Part shown: positions 10,398 through 19,915 of the stretch, piece after piece | Layout of the letters: every line of letters begins with the position of its first letter | Position numbering within the stretch: position 1 is the first letter of the stretch | Origin: a virus | DNA: 22,215 nucleotides | Virus record (IMG/VR): IMGVR_UViG_3300042924_001976 | Span: 1-22,215 of that record | Reading direction: 5' to 3' (one strand) | Program-made: the position numbers and the translations under genes | Notes under the pieces: generated by a model | Databases searched by the model: none | What the model was told of the DNA's origin: nothing | The model's input: the letters and a program-made list of their open reading frames with translations, nothing else

Positions 10398-13300
10398 TTA
10401 GAGCTGCGCGGTAAGCGGAGCAGTGTTATTATTGAATATAGTAATAATTTGAGATGTTTTGGCAGCGATCCAATCATCTCGCGATACCTGAGTTGAAACT
10501 CTGTTTACGGCTCCCTCTACTGTTGCACTGCCTGTAAGAGTTGCTGATACAAGTGCGGCGGTTTGGGCAGCCACAACTGTATTTCCGTTATTTACAGCAG
10601 TTGTGGTAGCACCAACAGCAGTTGTGGTAGCACCAACAGCAGCGATTAGAGTAGTAGTGCTTGGAGCGTTTTCTCCCACTAGTGCTGTTTTGATACTGGG
10701 AATACCGTCTCTGCCCATCATGGCGTCCTTGAAGTCCTTGAACTCTCTTGCCATAGTTTCAAGGGCTTGCTTTACGTCACCAGTTTGAGCGGCGGTATTT
10801 TGAGCTATTCTATCAAAAGCAGTATTTCTGTTTGTTTGAGCAGTATTAAAGTCCTTTATTAGATCGGCTGTAGATCTGGAGCTATCGGCTATATCTTCTA
10901 GAGCTATGCCATTTTCTTTAAGGACGTCCAACTGATGAACTTGAATGTCTTCCCGAACTTCTTTTAGTTTGTCTGCGCTTTGGTCTAGTGCTTTACTAAC
11001 AGCTTGGAAGTCGCTAACATAAGCACCGCTGCTTGCATTAACCACTCTAGAAGCTTGTAAGTAGGCGTCTGCTACTTGAGGTAGCTTGCTGACTGCCTCC
11101 AACTGTGCTTTTGCTTGTGCTTCTGTTTCAGGATTTATGTTAATAGCAGTTAATAATTCTTCAAACTGTGTTTTGGCTAGGTTGTATTTATCTATTGGTA
11201 GTAGTGTAGACAGATCTCCGGCTAACAGAGTGTTCTTGTAGTTAGTTAGGTTATCTATGGCTTTAGTGAAATCATTGAAAACCGACTTCAGTAAATCTCT
11301 GCGTTTAATCAGCTTATCTTTTGCTGAAAGTTCGTCCTCTAGAGCGTATAGGTATCTTTGGTTTGAAACTAATATATCCTTTTGAACTCCTGAATATTTA
11401 TCAAACTCTTTTAGTTCTTTGGCTCGCTGTGCATCTCGTACTGCTGCAGTCATTGTTTCTGATCGCGTGATTTCAGCATATAGCTGTAATGCCCTAATTC
11501 GTGTGTCATTAATTTTAGCAACAAACTCATCTGTGGTTAGGGAAACTATTTTTTCGGCTTCTTTGTATACCATAGCAAAAGCTGGAGCTAGCTCCATAAG
11601 AGACGTATAAAGCTCTCTGCCTGCTGGAGTGGTAATGTCAAGTGCATTGACAATGTTTTTAAACTCGCCACGAGTTTTTATTAAGGCCAAGTCTGTTTTA
11701 CCGTGTTCAATGGCTAGGTCACCCAGTCGCTTAGTAACTGACTCCTGTATAGGAGTCAATCTCTCGGCTTCAGTTAAAAAGTTATCTGCATAAAACTTCT
11801 GGTTGTCTAGGAATTTGTCCAGTCCTCCGGCTAGAGTGGCTAGTGCTTCTGTAATTTCTATGCTTTTTTCTTTTAACTCTGCGTCTGTGGCTGCTCTGGT
11901 TACAGTTCTTGTACTACCATACCAAGTTCTGACAGTTTCCGTAATAGTGCCAAAACTTTCTTTTACAAGCTGATTAATGGTTTTTCCGCCCTGAGCTAGA
12001 AATGACTGAGAAATTTTTTCATTTGTATCTAAAACACGAACAACAGTCTCTGCCATTCCTTCGCCAAAATTACGGAACTTTTCTAAGCTTTTAAAAGCAA
12101 TAGTGGCCGCATCATCTAAAGCGCTAGAAATTACATTTCCTAACTCCTTTTGTAACTCTTCGCCTTGTAGACCTCTCAATGAAGCAAATTTTCCTGTTAG
12201 GTCAACTTGAGCCAGAGATGCAAATATGTCGTCTTGGGTTTTACCCAAATTGCCACCCAGTTCAACAAATAAGGCACCCGCATTACTAAATATTTTAGTA
12301 ATTTCTGCAGCAGCTTTTTGATCAACACTAGCCAAGTCTCTTTCAAGAGTTGCGTCTGTAGTCCTTGTGCTTCCACCAATACCTAAAAATCCGCTACTTT
12401 TCTTTGTGGTTCTAGTAGTTTCATACTGTTGAACAGATCCTGCTTTGCCTGATAGTACATCCAGGAATGAACCCGCAAACTTTATACCAGAGTCTATTAT
12501 TTCTTTAGTTGTCCTACTGCCAAATAGTCCTTGTATACCACTGCTGGTTGTACCCTCTTTGGTACCAAATCCAGTGCCCATGCGTAGGCCTAGTACACCG
12601 TATAAAGATTTTGCCGCTCCGCCTATAGAACGATCAATGCTCTCCAACAATTTAACAGTTCTGTTTTGATAGGTTAAACCTTCAACACTGGTATTACCTA
12701 TTAGATTTAAAGAATTTTTAATGCTGTCTGATTTTGCCTCTGAGTCTCCAAAAACTCCACCACCAGTTTCTACTTTCTTGCCATCTTTCCAAGTCATACC
12801 AGTTCCCTGGGTTTCTTGACGTTCTGAGGCTGTAGAACCTGCTACGGGTGCTGAGCTCTTTTTACCAAAAACACTTAAACCTATTGCTGCAACTATAGCT
12901 GCTGCGACTGGTGGTCCAAAGATACCAAGTTGTGCAGATATTTTAGCAAATATTTCTGTTACGTATAGTCCGGCTCTAGCAAAGAAACCTGCCCCAGTTG
13001 CGGCTGTTTGTGCTGTTTCACCTGCAACGCTTCCAGCAACCTTTGCTTTGTCTACGAATAGTGAAGTTGCTAACTCTTTAAAGTCCATTGCAATTCTGGC
13101 AATGTGTAGAGCTTTTTCTACACCGCTCAAAATTTTGTAAGCAGCTGTTTTCTCTTTGAATAAGGTTTTAGCGCTGCCCATTAATCTGGCATTATCTGAA
13201 ATCTCATCCTTTGCCTTCTTCCGCTCCAAATCACCCAAGTCTTTGGTTGCCTTTGTTCTTTTTTGTATTTGGTCGTATGTAAGGTCACCAGTACCCTCTT

Positions 13301-16300
13301 CAGCTTTTTTAATGTCAGCCAAGATACCTACATACTTGGCTTTATCAGTGTTATACTTTTCTTGGCCTGCAGATATATCTCCAAAAGTTTTTACAAGATT
13401 ACCTAAAACAGCACCTGTTTTACCAAATGCTTGGGCTAGAGTGTCTGCAATGCCTTCGAAAAGTCCTAGGATCTCTGCTTGCTTTTTGAGTTCTTCATTT
13501 TGTTTGGCTGTTTCTATAGCTTGTGATCTAGTCAATTGAATTGCAGTTACTCTTGAAGAATTAGCCCTATCTTGAGCTAAAGCTTGTGCGTCAAAAGCAC
13601 TTGCAAGATCCATCATTTGTTTAATAGTAGCTGAATTGTCTTCTCCACGCATCGCTTGTCGATTTGCTTTTGCGGCTAATTCACCTATTGCTGTGCTTCT
13701 TTGATTAGTTAAGTTTTGACGCTCTTTTTCAAATGATAATTCTTGTTTGGTTAATTCAATTTGTGCTCGGCTATTTGCTATAAATTCTTCACTAAATATT
13801 TTTTGCTGTTCAGCAATACTTAACCTGGTTTCTGCTAATCCAAGTTCTGATTCTTTTATAGACAGCGTAGCGTTTTTTCTAGTTTGCTCATTTTGTCTTT
13901 CAGAGTCTGCTATTTCTTTTAACTTTGACTGTTGTCTGTCATAAACGGACAATCTCTCTTTTGCAATATTGGTTTCTATCTGCGATCTTCTATTAAATTC
14001 TTCTCTGGTAGCCAGCTGCTCGGCTTGAAGCCTATTGGACTCGGCATTTTGATAAACCATTTCGGCATCTTGTGCACTACCTAAAGCTACCAATCCATTA
14101 CGAATAACTAACTGTTTATTGTAATCACTTTTTGCCTTTAGTTTTTTATCTTCAAACTCTAAAGATGCTTGTTCGATCTGTGCTATTCTTAGTTTTTCAA
14201 GTGTTTCAATTTCGGTTTCTTTATTAGAGGGTAGCTGAAGTTGTAAACTTTCTCTTGTAGCGCTATTTTCTCTAATTTTAGCATCTAATATATCTTTTTC
14301 TTTTTTATAGCGCGAGTCTTCTTCTGCTAAAGGCTTTTCTATTTTTTTGATCAATTCTTGTTGCTGAGCTATATCTTGTAAGGACTTTATGAAACCAGCA
14401 TTTGATTGAGCAGCATTTACTATTTCTTGAGCGTAACCACTAGCACCCTCTGCATTGCTTACTAAAGCCTTATTTAGATCTGCGAGTGCTGCTAGTGGAT
14501 TTATAGCAGCCCGTCTCAATAACTTTAACTTTTCTTCTGCATTTTGTACATCTTTATCTGTAGTAGCGACTCTTTGGCCTGCTGTTTCTGCTTCTCTTAA
14601 TGTTTTAGCGGAACCTAGTTGTTCTCTTGCAGACTTATTAGACTCTAAGGCATTGCTTAATGCGGTTTCGGCTGTTAGTAACGTTATTCTGTTTGCTAAT
14701 TCTTGCTGAATTCTTATTAATCTTGCCTGTCCGTCTAATTCTTTGATCTTTAAATCAAATTGACGTCCTGCTAGCTCAGGAATATTATCTATTCTTGAGT
14801 ACAGAGACTGAAGTAGCTGTGTTGAACCTTTGGCTAGTTCTGCCTGAATACGGCCGGCTATTAAACCTACAGACTCAGACAGTCCTGTATTAATACTATT
14901 TCTAATCTTTAGCGCGGCACCTTCTGCTGTAGACTCTGCCTGAGCTCTGGCATTTCTAGCTCTATCTATTTCAGATTTCAGTCGTGCAATTTCTTTGTTT
15001 ACAATTTCTTTTTCTACGCCCGGTCTATCTCTGGCTGTTGTACTATCAATACTTCCTGCGGCTGCAAATAAATCTTTTTCTGCCAGCTTTTGTAAATCTT
15101 TTAGCTTCTGTTCTAGATTTTGTGCGTCTTGTTCACTTTGTACCATTAATTTTTGAGCCTTATTTAACTCAATATTTAATTTGGCTACTTCTATTGAACT
15201 AGAGCCAAATATAGGTGACTTGTTTAGTTCGTCGGAAGCCTTGATCAAGTTTGATATAGACTCACTGATAGGGCCACTTAAATTTTTATCAAGAGCAGTT
15301 AAAGCTGCTATACTGGTATTGGCCCATTTAACTGTGCTATCACTTACTTCAAATTCTTTGGATACCTGTCTAAAAGCTTCCTTTGAAGCTTCAAAAGCAG
15401 AAACAAACTCTCTGGCTCTGCTGGCGGCTATACCAGCATCATTGGAAGCTCCTTTAATAGCTCTTCGGATTTCTTCTACTATACCAGAAGTAGGGGCTAG
15501 TCCTTTTAAGGCTTTTTCTACCTGTTTAAAGTTTGTTACATCTTCTATATTTAACAAACCACCAAGTTTACTCTTTAATTCGTCAGCAATCTTTTTATTA
15601 TCTATGCCCTCAACAGCTGCAACTATACCTTGGCCAAAACTTTCTGAAAAACTAGATTGAACGTCTAAATTAAAAATTCCTTTTATAGTATTCTTGAACT
15701 TGTCCCATCCAGAGTCCTGTAGTGCTCTCAATGCTTTTTGAGCATTTTTTGCTAACTCGTCCATGCTGCTAGAAAACTCTAACAAGGCATTGGACTGTGC
15801 TTCCATGCTCTGTACACTAAAAGGATTTGTTTGACGTATTGTATCAAATGTATTTGTTAGGTTTTTTGTAGAACCCTCGACACGACCAACACTACCACTA
15901 AAAGCATCAATTTCTTTTGAAGCTTTTGAAAATATGCCATCTATTAAGGACACAGATGCGGCTACTAGGCCTATTACCATGAAGAAACCATTCAAGGCAT
16001 TCATGGCGGTACTTATCATACCACCAAATGCTGCTATTGCTCCACGAGCAGTTAACATTGCCGCACTAAAGCCTGTGATATTATTACGTGCTATTTCTTC
16101 TCTTAGTAAGGCAAAAGATCCCCTTAGTCCTATAAGACTACCATTGTATGCTGCATTACTTATAATTGAAGATCTAATAGCTGCGTCTTGTGCTCTCTGT
16201 CCTGCTCTTACAGACAGGCCATAAGTACCCCAACTTTGTGCATCTCTTTCTACTTGTTCAGTAAGTCTCTGTCTAGTAGCTATTAGATCTGTTTCTGCTG

Positions 16301-17675
16301 TAATTTGAGAACGTATTGCTGTTACTACATCTCTGTACGCAGAGGCTTCTGCACTGCGACCACGTCTTTCCATGGCTCCAGCTGCTCTTTCTACTCTTTG
16401 TAGATCTTGCTCTGTTATGTCTTGTAAATCTCGGGATAGTAGTCGGAAAGCAGCACTTCTTCTATTTAAATTACCTTGCTGTAATTGTTGTATTCTAGCT
16501 TCTGCGGCTTCTACAGCTCTTAGTTCTCTGTCTGCACGGGATTCTACTTCATCAATTATTCTTTGATTTATAAGTTGTCTGGCCTGCTGTGCTTCTTGTG
16601 CTTTTTGTTGGGCCAATTGTCCTGCTCTTTGGGCAGTCTGTTCTAAACCCTGTCTAAATTCACCTATAGCTGGAAGAGCTTGTTTAACTAATATAGCTGC
16701 TAATGCTCCAATACCTGTTAACAAGGCAGTAGGGCTCTGACTAAAAAAGTTAGCCACTGGTGCTACGACCTTGTTTACAAACTCTAAAATGTTTTGTGAG
16801 GCGTCGCGAATAGAGGCAGACAATTTTGTGTAGGGATTTGCGTCAATTTTGATACTGCTAAACTTTTGTTCGCCCTCTGCTAACACAGCATTAGCAAATG
16901 CGGCTCTTCTTTCAAAATCTGTTAGTTCGCTGACGCTCTTATTAACAGATTTAGCATATTCTTTTACTGCTGGATCAAGTTTGGTAAATATACCCAGTTC
17001 GTCCAATAGTTCGGGTTCTAGCTTAGTAATACCACGAGTTAGGCGACTGATGGCATCCCCCATATCCACACCGAGAGCTTGAGATGCTTGTTTTGCTACA
17101 TTTCCAAGCCTTAATACATCTTGGCTGTTCATACCACTAGATACAGCTTTAGTGGTTGCTTCCATGGCTTCGCGCAGACTGATGGCTCCGTCTGTTGCAG
17201 CTACAAGTCTCTTGCTTAAACTACCCAGTGCTACACCACTTGCAGCCCCCAACTGATCAAGACCTTTGACCATATTGGTAGTATCCATGGCACGGCTTAA
17301 AGCGCCAAACGCAGCTGTTAGTGCAAAGGTATTAGCTGCAACAGTTGCATACAGACGTACCAACCCGCCAAGCCCACGAGCTTGGTCTGCAAAGTCACGA
17401 GCGGTACCGCCTGCAGCACCGGACGCACCTCTGGCCCGATTGTAGTTTTCTACCTCTTGGCCAGTAAAAACTCCAGCAGATGCTCCTGCGTTGCCGGTAG
17501 GCCGAGCTGCTGCGCTACTGGCAAATCTACGACTACTACCACTGCCACTGACATTTTGTGCCGCTTGTTGTGCTTGTTGTAAGTTGTCTCTTATTGTCTG
17601 ACTCTGTTGTTGAGCCTGATCCATACCCTGAGTTCTAAGTCTCAGGGTAAATGTACTTGTATTATTAGCTGCCAT
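10398..17675 (-). CDS. Tape measure protein
   Basis: 2425 residues from the ATG at 17673-17675, with AGGAG at 17681-17685, five bases upstream. The frame is open 14 codons further to a TTG at 17717, but that codon lies at the predicted transcription start. Domains: Gln/Ala-rich N-terminus (1-45); a tape-measure core at about 150-280 (ITKLEPELLDELGIF, VKEYAKSVNKSVSELTDFE, FANAVLAEGEQKF); long coiled-coil regions rich in Gln, Glu, Lys and Ala over most of about 340-520 and 640-1500; hydrophobic segments at about 108-128, 316-337, 545-582 (GFFMVIGLVAASVSLI) and about 1570-1605 (PPVAAAIVAAIGLSVFG). Such segments are thought to help the tape insert in the host membrane at DNA ejection. At the usual 1.5 angstrom per residue the tail would be roughly 350 nm long (inference). 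No lysozyme or peptidase motif was recognised. Led by its own consensus promoter. Confidence 0.93.
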   Translation of the reverse strand: MAANNTSTFTLRLRTQGMDQAQQQSQTIRDNLQQAQQAAQNVSGSGSSRRFASSAAARPTGNAGASAGVFTGQEVENYNRARGASGAAGGTARDFADQARGLGGLVRLYATVAANTFALTAAFGALSRAMDTTNMVKGLDQLGAASGVALGSLSKRLVAATDGAISLREAMEATTKAVSSGMNSQDVLRLGNVAKQASQALGVDMGDAISRLTRGITKLEPELLDELGIFTKLDPAVKEYAKSVNKSVSELTDFERRAAFANAVLAEGEQKFSSIKIDANPYTKLSASIRDASQNILEFVNKVVAPVANFFSQSPTALLTGIGALAAILVKQALPAIGEFRQGLEQTAQRAGQLAQQKAQEAQQARQLINQRIIDEVESRADRELRAVEAAEARIQQLQQGNLNRRSAAFRLLSRDLQDITEQDLQRVERAAGAMERRGRSAEASAYRDVVTAIRSQITAETDLIATRQRLTEQVERDAQSWGTYGLSVRAGQRAQDAAIRSSIISNAAYNGSLIGLRGSFALLREEIARNNITGFSAAMLTARGAIAAFGGMISTAMNALNGFFMVIGLVAASVSLIDGIFSKASKEIDAFSGSVGRVEGSTKNLTNTFDTIRQTNPFSVQSMEAQSNALLEFSSSMDELAKNAQKALRALQDSGWDKFKNTIKGIFNLDVQSSFSESFGQGIVAAVEGIDNKKIADELKSKLGGLLNIEDVTNFKQVEKALKGLAPTSGIVEEIRRAIKGASNDAGIAASRAREFVSAFEASKEAFRQVSKEFEVSDSTVKWANTSIAALTALDKNLSGPISESISNLIKASDELNKSPIFGSSSIEVAKLNIELNKAQKLMVQSEQDAQNLEQKLKDLQKLAEKDLFAAAGSIDSTTARDRPGVEKEIVNKEIARLKSEIDRARNARAQAESTAEGAALKIRNSINTGLSESVGLIAGRIQAELAKGSTQLLQSLYSRIDNIPELAGRQFDLKIKELDGQARLIRIQQELANRITLLTAETALSNALESNKSAREQLGSAKTLREAETAGQRVATTDKDVQNAEEKLKLLRRAAINPLAALADLNKALVSNAEGASGYAQEIVNAAQSNAGFIKSLQDIAQQQELIKKIEKPLAEEDSRYKKEKDILDAKIRENSATRESLQLQLPSNKETEIETLEKLRIAQIEQASLEFEDKKLKAKSDYNKQLVIRNGLVALGSAQDAEMVYQNAESNRLQAEQLATREEFNRRSQIETNIAKERLSVYDRQQSKLKEIADSERQNEQTRKNATLSIKESELGLAETRLSIAEQQKIFSEEFIANSRAQIELTKQELSFEKERQNLTNQRSTAIGELAAKANRQAMRGEDNSATIKQMMDLASAFDAQALAQDRANSSRVTAIQLTRSQAIETAKQNEELKKQAEILGLFEGIADTLAQAFGKTGAVLGNLVKTFGDISAGQEKYNTDKAKYVGILADIKKAEEGTGDLTYDQIQKRTKATKDLGDLERKKAKDEISDNARLMGSAKTLFKEKTAAYKILSGVEKALHIARIAMDFKELATSLFVDKAKVAGSVAGETAQTAATGAGFFARAGLYVTEIFAKISAQLGIFGPPVAAAIVAAIGLSVFGKKSSAPVAGSTASERQETQGTGMTWKDGKKVETGGGVFGDSEAKSDSIKNSLNLIGNTSVEGLTYQNRTVKLLESIDRSIGGAAKSLYGVLGLRMGTGFGTKEGTTSSGIQGLFGSRTTKEIIDSGIKFAGSFLDVLSGKAGSVQQYETTRTTKKSSGFLGIGGSTRTTDATLERDLASVDQKAAAEITKIFSNAGALFVELGGNLGKTQDDIFASLAQVDLTGKFASLRGLQGEELQKELGNVISSALDDAATIAFKSLEKFRNFGEGMAETVVRVLDTNEKISQSFLAQGGKTINQLVKESFGTITETVRTWYGSTRTVTRAATDAELKEKSIEITEALATLAGGLDKFLDNQKFYADNFLTEAERLTPIQESVTKRLGDLAIEHGKTDLALIKTRGEFKNIVNALDITTPAGRELYTSLMELAPAFAMVYKEAEKIVSLTTDEFVAKINDTRIRALQLYAEITRSETMTAAVRDAQRAKELKEFDKYSGVQKDILVSNQRYLYALEDELSAKDKLIKRRDLLKSVFNDFTKAIDNLTNYKNTLLAGDLSTLLPIDKYNLAKTQFEELLTAININPETEAQAKAQLEAVSKLPQVADAYLQASRVVNASSGAYVSDFQAVSKALDQSADKLKEVREDIQVHQLDVLKENGIALEDIADSSRSTADLIKDFNTAQTNRNTAFDRIAQNTAAQTGDVKQALETMAREFKDFKDAMMGRDGIPSIKTALVGENAPSTTTLIAAVGATTTAVGATTTAVNNGNTVVAAQTAALVSATLTGSATVEGAVNRVSTQVSRDDWIAAKTSQIITIFNNNTAPLTAQL
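10594..10642 (-). repeat. Perfect 21-base tandem duplication near the 3' end of the tape measure gene
   Basis: The unit GCAGTTGTGGTAGCACCAACA, written here as two parts GCAGTTGTGGT and AGCACCAACA, occurs twice in perfect form (10597-10617 and 10618-10638), with partial flanking copies. It encodes two copies of the seven-residue string VGATTTA and keeps the frame. Identical third bases point to a recent event. Confidence 0.85.
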
Positions 17676-17778: not shown

Positions 17779-17803
17779 AAAAAAGCCCGCTATGGGCGGG
17801 CTT
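17779..17803 (-). terminator. Intrinsic terminator after the tail chaperone genes
   Basis: GC-rich 8-bp stem: AAGCCCGC (17783-17790) pairs with GCGGGCTT (17796-17803) around a 5-base loop; on the minus strand the stem runs into six T (17784-17779). The TAA stop of the chaperone second frame (17802-17804) overlaps the stem. Confidence 0.88.
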
Positions 17804-18119
17804 AATTGGTCTTTGGTTTGCTATCTTGTATCTTTTTAGATCTGATGCTGTCTATCAACAACAATAGGTCCAGGTAGACTTTGTGTAATTCTGGTTCGAT
17901 GTTGTTTATACGAAACACAGTTTCTATATAGTTAAAATTTTTTCCTATATAGTTGCCACCCATATAATCCCAACAATCTTGCAGGGTGTTATATATCTGA
18001 AACGCTTCCTGAACCTCCAACACTAAATCAGAGAACTCTAACGGTATTTCAGACTCCAGTGGCTCTGTGTTCATCATGTCGCACATGTCCAAGTAGTGTT
18101 CCTTGGTCATGCCCAACAT
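17802..18119 (-). CDS. Downstream (T-like) frame of the tail assembly chaperone
   Basis: 105 codons from the first ATG of the frame (18117-18119) to TAA. No ribosome site precedes that ATG (the upstream bases read TTTGAAAACTCC), and the frame stays open upstream to the slippery site. It is therefore probably expressed only as the C-terminal part of the frameshift fusion, not on its own. Helix-rich and acidic (YLDMCDMMNTEPLESEIPLE, then EVQEAFQIYNTLQD, MGGNYIGKNF, LLLLIDSIRSKK). Similar small proteins with an EIP and a GK-N/D motif occur before tape measure genes in other phages. Confidence 0.6.
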   Translation of the reverse strand: MLGMTKEHYLDMCDMMNTEPLESEIPLEFSDLVLEVQEAFQIYNTLQDCWDYMGGNYIGKNFNYIETVFRINNIEPELHKVYLDLLLLIDSIRSKKIQDSKPKTN

Positions 18120-18595
18120 GGAGTTTTCAAAGTACCGACCAATACTATCTTTTACTTCTTCGTACTGGCGCTCTGAAAGTTTCCCAGGTCACTTACTGTT
18201 TCTGAAACCCAAGCATCAAAATTTGAACTGTTTCTCATCAAGAAAAGCGCATTTTCTTCACTGAATCCCAACTCACTGTTCATGTCTTGACCACTGAGTT
18301 CTACGGGTGCTAGTTGCTCTAGGTAGGTAAGTTTAAAACCGGTCCAGCCCTTGACAGCCGATTGTACATAGAGTTGTAAAAATAGGTCGTCATTGAGCTC
18401 TTCGGATGCTTGACGATTCTTAAAAACATTCTTTGTAGCCTTTTTACGGATAGAGACTAGGGTTTCTCTGCTTAAAAAGCCCAGAGTAACTTTAAATCCT
18501 GCGTATCCGGGCATTTCAGCTTCTACGGTTTTACTAGGTACCAATAGGCTCTTTAGTGATAGGTTTACTTGAGAACCACTTGCGTTTTCTGTCAT
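17802..18595 (-). CDS. Tail assembly chaperone fusion (G-T type) made by -1 frameshift
   Basis: Predicted join: residues 1-139 are read in the first frame (18595 down to 18179), then the ribosome slips back one base on GGGAAAC and continues from 18179 to the TAA at 17802-17804. This adds 125 residues for a total of 264. The -1 frame is open across the whole junction, and the new segment starts LSERQYEEVKDSIGRYFENS. Lambda gpG (140 residues) and gpGT (279 residues) are very close in length and organisation. In that family the G part coats the tape measure and the T part recruits tube subunits; neither is kept in the virion. Position between the tube and tape measure genes is the classic one. 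The slip is inferred from sequence, not measured. Confidence 0.88.
18152..18595 (-). CDS. Tail assembly chaperone (G-like, unshifted product)
   Basis: 147 residues. ATG at 18593-18595 with AAGGA at 18602-18606; TAA stop at 18152-18154. Soluble, with basic and acidic patches; key stretches are FKVTLGFLSRETLVSIRKKA (about 29-48), KGWTGFKLTYLEQL (82-95) and FDAWVSETVSDLGN (126-139). The K-G-W plus late N-S-x-x-F-x-x-W pattern is typical of siphovirus tail assembly chaperones. It is the major product; a fraction of ribosomes should shift at codons 138-139 to make the 264-residue fusion. It follows the tail tube gene after 54 bases that hold a strong hairpin. Confidence 0.85.
   Translation of the reverse strand: MTENASGSQVNLSLKSLLVPSKTVEAEMPGYAGFKVTLGFLSRETLVSIRKKATKNVFKNRQASEELNDDLFLQLYVQSAVKGWTGFKLTYLEQLAPVELSGQDMNSELGFSEENALFLMRNSSNFDAWVSETVSDLGNFQSASTKK
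18179..18185 (-). promoter_or_regulatory. Programmed -1 frameshift slippery site GGGAAAC
   Basis: Read on the minus strand in the chaperone frame as CTG GGA AAC, so the heptamer sits in the required X XXY YYZ register. The lambda G/GT site is GGGAAAG, differing only in the last base. No strong downstream stem is visible: only a 5-bp AGTAC/GTACT pairing (18166-18162 with 18135-18131), which is unconvincing. Only codons 140-147 and the stop follow in the zero frame. Confidence 0.88.
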
Positions 18596-18649: not shown

Positions 18650-19915
18650 TTAAACTGCGGGAGAAGAGTAGTAAGTAATAGTAGCTTCGTTGTTTTGCTC
18701 AATATCATAGGTTCCGGAGGCTGCGCCTTGAGCTGTAAAGTTGATGCTAGTAGAAATTACTTGCTCTGTACTGATCTGAGGAATCTGCAACATGGCTGAT
18801 GGTAGTTCAAAGATTACCTTGTTTTCCATGGTTGTAGAAGTAGGAACTGCCACACTTCCGCCCATACCGAGTTTGACGTTAAACTGGTTTTGGTCATAGG
18901 TGTTGGCCTGTGTAAGCAGAGTACTCAATAGTTGCGCGGTGTTTGTACTACCGGTTCTCAGATACGCTGTTAAACTGCCGCTCACAGCTCTGGTACCTAC
19001 GAAATAGTCAATAGGCTTGTTAACTGTGCCCATTACTGCTGGTGTTAGATAAGTAACGTTGTTGGCAAAAGTAATATTACCACCAGTAATAGCAAAGGTA
19101 TAAGTAACAGCACTTTGACCGTACTTGGCAGCTGTAGATGCCAATTCTACAGTACTCAAACGGTTTGTGATGTACTTACATGTGGCATCTTTGGGCTTGT
19201 AGGCACCACTTAGTAGGCCGCCAAAGCTACCTGATAAAGTGGGACTGGTACCAGTGGTTGTTGCTGTTGTTGTGGTTGTAGAAACTTCAATTTCTGCAAC
19301 TTTGCCTGTCCAAGCAATAGTACCAATTTGATCGATACCAAAGTCAACTGAGGCTTGGTCAATAACACAGTTGTGTAGCAACACAGTTGTGTCGTCAAAC
19401 ACAATAATCAAGCCAAAACGTAGCAATTGATTTCTGTTACTCTGTGTTAGACGGACTTGAGCTGAAGGAACAGTAGTGCCGTTTGGCGCAGCTGTTTCGG
19501 TATATGCTTGTCCAGCTGTAGTTGTAAGAGCGGAAGCACTGCTCAAGTCTACGTTGGTATAACCAAACATAGCATTCCACAGGCAGGCTTCTTCGGGTCG
19601 CACAAAGTCACCAATGTCAAGTCCGGCAGCTACTGCTCCGCCTTCAAACATCTTGGGACGTACATAGGTAGAAATACTCCAATCACCTGCTTCTAGAGCA
19701 GTTGCAAAGCTTCTCTGGCCGCGGCTAGGTGTGCTGCCAGCCTCATTTAAAGTAACTGTGTCTAGAGTGGTATTTTGGCTAAAGCTCATACCGTCTAGAG
19801 GTTGTAGTTCGAATGTGTCAGCGGCAGAGCGGGCTGTAGCTGGGGCGATTCTGTTGTCTCCGTCTAGTGCTGTAGTAAAGAATACTCTAGCACCTCTAAT
19901 TAAATTAACTGCCAT
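18650..19915 (-). CDS. Major tail tube protein, probably with duplicated tube domain
   Basis: 421 residues. ATG at 19913-19915, AAAGGA at 19923-19928, TAA stop. It occupies the tube position between tail terminator and chaperones, and no sheath gene is present. Residues 1-210 form a first beta-rich domain (FELQPLDGMSFSQNTTLDTV at 35-54; GDWSISTYVRP at 77-87; ASVDFGIDQIGTIAWTGKVA at 188-207). A Thr-rich linker follows (about 211-224). Residues about 246-421 repeat the same order of elements (TFAITGGNITFANNVTYLTP at 273-292; SGSLTAYLRTG at 312-322; ISTEQVISTSINFTAQG at 381-397). Tube proteins of usual length are about 150-250 residues, so this is about twice that. T5 pb6 is a known duplicated tube protein that forms trimeric rings. 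Alternative: a single tube domain with a C-terminal Ig-like decoration, as in lambda gpV. Confidence 0.87.
   Translation of the reverse strand: MAVNLIRGARVFFTTALDGDNRIAPATARSAADTFELQPLDGMSFSQNTTLDTVTLNEAGSTPSRGQRSFATALEAGDWSISTYVRPKMFEGGAVAAGLDIGDFVRPEEACLWNAMFGYTNVDLSSASALTTTAGQAYTETAAPNGTTVPSAQVRLTQSNRNQLLRFGLIIVFDDTTVLLHNCVIDQASVDFGIDQIGTIAWTGKVAEIEVSTTTTTATTTGTSPTLSGSFGGLLSGAYKPKDATCKYITNRLSTVELASTAAKYGQSAVTYTFAITGGNITFANNVTYLTPAVMGTVNKPIDYFVGTRAVSGSLTAYLRTGSTNTAQLLSTLLTQANTYDQNQFNVKLGMGGSVAVPTSTTMENKVIFELPSAMLQIPQISTEQVISTSINFTAQGAASGTYDIEQNNEATITYYSSPAV

Follow-up and report, generated by a model that had tools for sequence, protein, structure and literature searches.

A Putative −1 Frameshift in a T5-Type Tail Assembly Chaperone Pair and an Apparent Change of Signal and Direction across Its Family

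Introduction

Two overlapping reading frames precede the tape measure gene in the viral DNA analyzed here (IMG/VR virus record IMGVR_UViG_3300042924_001976, positions 1 to 22,215; hereafter the window), and they raise the question of whether the second frame is a gene in its own right or an extension that ribosomes reach from the first by a programmed frameshift. Coordinates below refer to the window, and all features described lie on its minus strand.

Results

Layout of the Gene Pair

The first frame, a G-like tail assembly chaperone ORF (18595..18152, minus), is preceded by AAGGA and encodes 147 aa in the zero frame, ending at TAA. The T-like extension (18188..17802, minus) lies in the −1 frame, which is open from just after a TGA (18191-18189) to a TAA (17804-17802) and provides 125 aa past the junction. 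Because the −1-frame TGA and the G stop bound the overlap, a shift must fall at about 18188-18152. The fusion would contain 139 + 125 = 264 aa, with the junction ...SDLGN|LSERQYE. The overlapping ORFs are placed between the major tail protein gene (19915..18650, minus), which is directly upstream of G and gives matches to Demerecviridae and to PHROG 3575 (E 3.9e-49), and the gene for a tape measure protein of about 2425 aa (17675..10398, minus; PHROG 3779, E 3.4e-48). Thus, the arrangement described by the first-pass annotation, with overlapping frames before the tape measure gene, a −1 frame open across the junction and products of 147 and 264 aa, is reproduced from the coordinates. The contig is a 22-kb metagenomic sequence, itself unverified, and in principle the frames could overlap by chance, be remnants of a decayed gene or result from an error in sequencing. 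However, identical G and T are present in three IMG/VR contigs and the architecture recurs at about 160 homologous loci, making an accidental origin extremely improbable.

Several elements flank the pair. A perfect inverted repeat, GAGTAGGGTGG-TGAT-CCACCCTACTC, with no T-run after it, occupies the gap between the major tail gene and G (18640-18615, minus), and a terminator-like stem-loop with a U-run (17803..17783, minus) directly follows the T stop. Between this terminator and the tape measure gene is a perfect σ70 promoter-like site (17755-17727, minus; TTGACA-N17-TATAAT, with TG before the −10), which suggests that the tape measure gene may have its own transcript. The tape measure ORF was listed from TTG 17717; with AGGAGA as its ribosome site, ATG 17675 is the more likely start.

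Profile searches matched the G half to PHROG 313 (Tail assembly chaperone, E 2.5e-15) and the T half to PHROG 3914 (tail assembly chaperone, E 2.4e-12). The G half shares 34% identity with the T5.143 homologue of DT57C, and the closest isolates are Demerecviridae, the T5-like phages. By these similarities the pair is homologous to T5.143/T5.142 and belongs to the T5-type chaperone families, being lambda-like only in its logic. Searches of the G protein against Pfam gave no family at E<0.1, and its profile had no significant match among solved structures. The earlier description of the pair as lambda-style thus holds for the −1 shift logic, the GGGAAA-type heptamer and the similar product sizes, but not for the protein families.

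The Slippery Heptamer and Its Conservation

The overlap contains a single in-register slippery heptamer, G_GGA_AAC (18185-18179, minus), spanning Gly138-Asn139 in the codon context CTG GGA AAC TTT, as had been proposed for the joining of the two frames. No other in-register GGGAAA(N) is found in the 6638 codons of the window's ten genes, and X_XXY_YYZ motifs of any kind occur in register in those genes at 0.0048 per codon, so that about 0.05 would be expected in the 11-codon overlap. The final C, where lambda has G, had been flagged as a reason for doubt. The C is indeed present, but such an ending is not unusual, since GGGAAAC has been reported as the g-t site of HCTV-1, KL1 and Colossus (PMC5009743, PMC3483164, PMC3556154). 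Constructs in E. coli show poor shifting at A-site codons of mixed purine and pyrimidine content, of which AAC is one (PMC4066793); the AAC A site should be weak in E. coli, which may not be the host of the window phage.

We compared the site across homologues in IMG/VR and GenBank, where 162 loci contained both halves, 107 of them distinct, with 45 representatives less than 90% identical. The collections were scanned with single query sequences, the 15 rows of the full G alignment being too diverse for this purpose. At 117 loci T falls in the −1 frame, and these harbor either G_GGA_AAC (45 loci) or A_AAT_TTT (72 loci) at the same site, in register within the overlap and with no exceptions. 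The comparison had been suggested with the first-pass annotation, which took loss of the heptamer from homologues that keep both frames as evidence against a shift; none of the 117 loci shows such a loss.

Codon choice within the heptamer is equally strict. Among the 12 representatives of the G_GGA_AAC class, Gly is always GGA (12/12, vs 26% elsewhere in the same genes) and Asn always AAC (12/12, vs 43%), both counts ignoring shared ancestry, while the Phe codon just outside the heptamer varies between TTT and TTC. In the A_AAT_TTT class, Asn is AAT and Phe is TTT in 20/20 representatives, again with shared ancestry ignored; the codon ahead of them, which may stand for E, Q or A, has A as its last base in every one (20/20). 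Synonymous codons within the heptamer show no variation in either −1 class. This codon usage shows selection on the heptamer. At least three changes of signal type are needed to explain the tree of the fused proteins.

These data also bear on whether the frames might be joined in another way, by transcriptional slippage or by a shift elsewhere in the overlap. The layout strictly requires only that joining take place within the 37-nt stretch from the −1-frame TGA to the G stop. However, the overlap has no long homopolymer on which a polymerase could slip, and its sole conserved element is the heptamer, which alternates between two textbook slippery types. We regard joining by such other means as very improbable.

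Downstream RNA Structure

Although no clear downstream stem had been recognized at first, one is predicted in the window (18178..18124, minus), its inner part formed by pairing of GCCAGUAC with GUAUUGGU at a spacing of about 6-8 nt from the heptamer. A 60-nt segment from the heptamer onward has a predicted folding energy of −15.8 kcal/mol, with z −3.4 vs dinucleotide shuffles and p 0.03 vs synonymous-codon randomisation. The window's nearest relatives lack this stem, and three other loci (L014, L016 and L142) have one at the same place. By the synonymous randomisation, the G_GGA_AAC class shows modest extra structure (4/12 at p≤0.05); a stem common to all its members was sought, and stems were present in some members only. 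The A_AAT_TTT class has strong hairpins 4-10 nt downstream, which carry compensatory changes (by the same randomisation, mean z −2.4; 15/20 at p≤0.05). A search of the window against Rfam gave no family.

Entry into the T Frame

To reach T without a shift, ribosomes would have to start internally, at ATG 18119 or at the Met of a GMTK motif, or be coupled to the G stop, with T a separate gene. Both codons are in place, the GMTK Met is conserved in close relatives, and annotators of T5-like phages usually begin T at such a downstream codon. Yet a Shine-Dalgarno sequence was looked for ahead of ATG 18119, the first in the T frame, and is absent, as had been noted at the outset, and no usable ribosome site was found ahead of the conserved Met in close relatives.

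The linker from the G stop to the first conserved Met (GMTK) provides a further test. Among ten close relatives its −1 frame has pS 0.66 and pN 0.25, a dN/dS of about 0.2 that reflects purifying selection, while pN exceeds pS in the two control frames of the same linker; both frames of the pair are under selection. Moreover, 5/10 close homologues have no ATG, GTG or TTG upstream of the conserved Met, and the Met itself is missing in KEY, Eos, pVp-1 and L022. Because the linker evolves as −1-frame protein and often lacks any start codon, it is evidently translated by ribosomes arriving from upstream; T relies on entry from G. A separate T gene would in addition leave the invariant heptamers unexplained, and we consider it quite unlikely.

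We therefore favor, with high confidence, a −1 frameshifted tail assembly chaperone that would be made as a 147-aa G protein and, in the minority, as a 264-aa GT protein via GGGAAAC. As we infer the process and its efficiency, most ribosomes would finish at the G stop and release G. A minority, having GGA and AAC in the P and A sites, would slip back one base and re-pair on GGG and AAA, helped by the stem directly downstream, and would continue to the end of the GT fusion. If lambda is a guide, the tape measure protein would be coated by G, and GT would bring in the major tail protein through its T part, so the G:GT ratio should matter for tail assembly.

A +1 Frame at the Homologous Site of T5-Like Phages

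In Demerecviridae, T lies in the +1 frame in 45/45 loci, plus one stop-recoded phage. The overlap in all of these loci contains TTT_CGT or TTT_CGA, i.e. an invariant UUU_CG(U/A), and the Phe codon is TTT in 13/13 representatives vs 46% elsewhere, a count that ignores ancestry. My1 and 70E34 leave just 11 nt for the shift, which must therefore lie at TTT CGT. This conserved Phe aligns with the Phe adjoining the heptamer of the window, where T is −1 rather than +1 at UUU_CG(U/A). Thus, frameshift direction has apparently switched, −1 vs +1, at a homologous site. In the T frame, the linker of the T5 group shows purifying selection (pN/pS 0.29, with controls above 1.5), several members have no start codon in it, and the +1 class shows little downstream structure (3/13 at p≤0.05).

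Other shifts were considered for these phages. CCCAAAA or CCCAAAG occurs in some T5-like overlaps; we rejected these heptamers as −1 sites, since they are not conserved and T is +1 in these phages. We likewise rejected a −2 shift at the T5 site, because the codon it leads to (ACT from AAC TTT, CCT from TCC TTT) would not allow the tRNA to re-pair.

The Aeromonas phages AhSzq-1 and TS3 (Shenzhenvirus) have many in-frame TAG codons in their tail genes, and G and T are restored in both (L044 and L047) when TAG is read as sense; the AhSzq-1 record has no CDS annotated over the two genes. These tail genes look like a case of TAG reassignment in T5-like phages. AhSzq-1 keeps TTT CGA despite apparently reading TAG as sense.

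The +1 idea is not wholly new, since the Shivani record contains a joined CDS spanning 832 nt whose length fits a +1 shift. On the other side, a passage in the Sugarland announcement describes T5 and Sugarland as being without a predicted frameshift signal (PMC6256483, citing Zivanovic 2014). We consider it probable that within one chaperone family the −1 heptamer has switched several times, that −1 and +1 shifting have switched at the Phe codon, and that T5 makes its GT by a +1 shift on UUU_CGU.

Discussion

Taken alone, the window adds one more example of a phage frameshift strategy that has been known for a long time. More interesting is the change of signal and direction that the family as a whole appears to have undergone at one site, a bioinformatic result. 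The family would form a natural series that keeps protein function and shift position fixed and differs in slippery sequence, stimulatory stem and direction, and it yields a testable site in the model phage T5, where the signal was reported missing.

Comparison with known systems places the pair closest to T5.143/T5.142, with which it shares homologous proteins, the order of genes leading up to the tape measure gene and a change of frame at the same conserved Phe. In contrast to the window, the T5 pair has T in the +1 frame at UUU_CG(U/A) and shows no consistent structure downstream; in T5-like phages an additional gene separates the major tail gene from G, and most records annotate the pair as two separate genes. 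Lambda G/GT resembles the window in its similar product sizes, in its GGGAAA-type −1 heptamer, which ends in G rather than C, and in lying between the genes for the major tail and tape measure proteins; the Pfam search (E<0.1) gave no recognizable homology to the lambda gpG family. Finally, the g-t pairs of HCTV-1, KL1 and Colossus, which belong to other phage groups and are likened to the window by heptamer and role only, have the same GGGAAAC, predicted or used for tail chaperones (PMC5009743, PMC3483164, PMC3556154).
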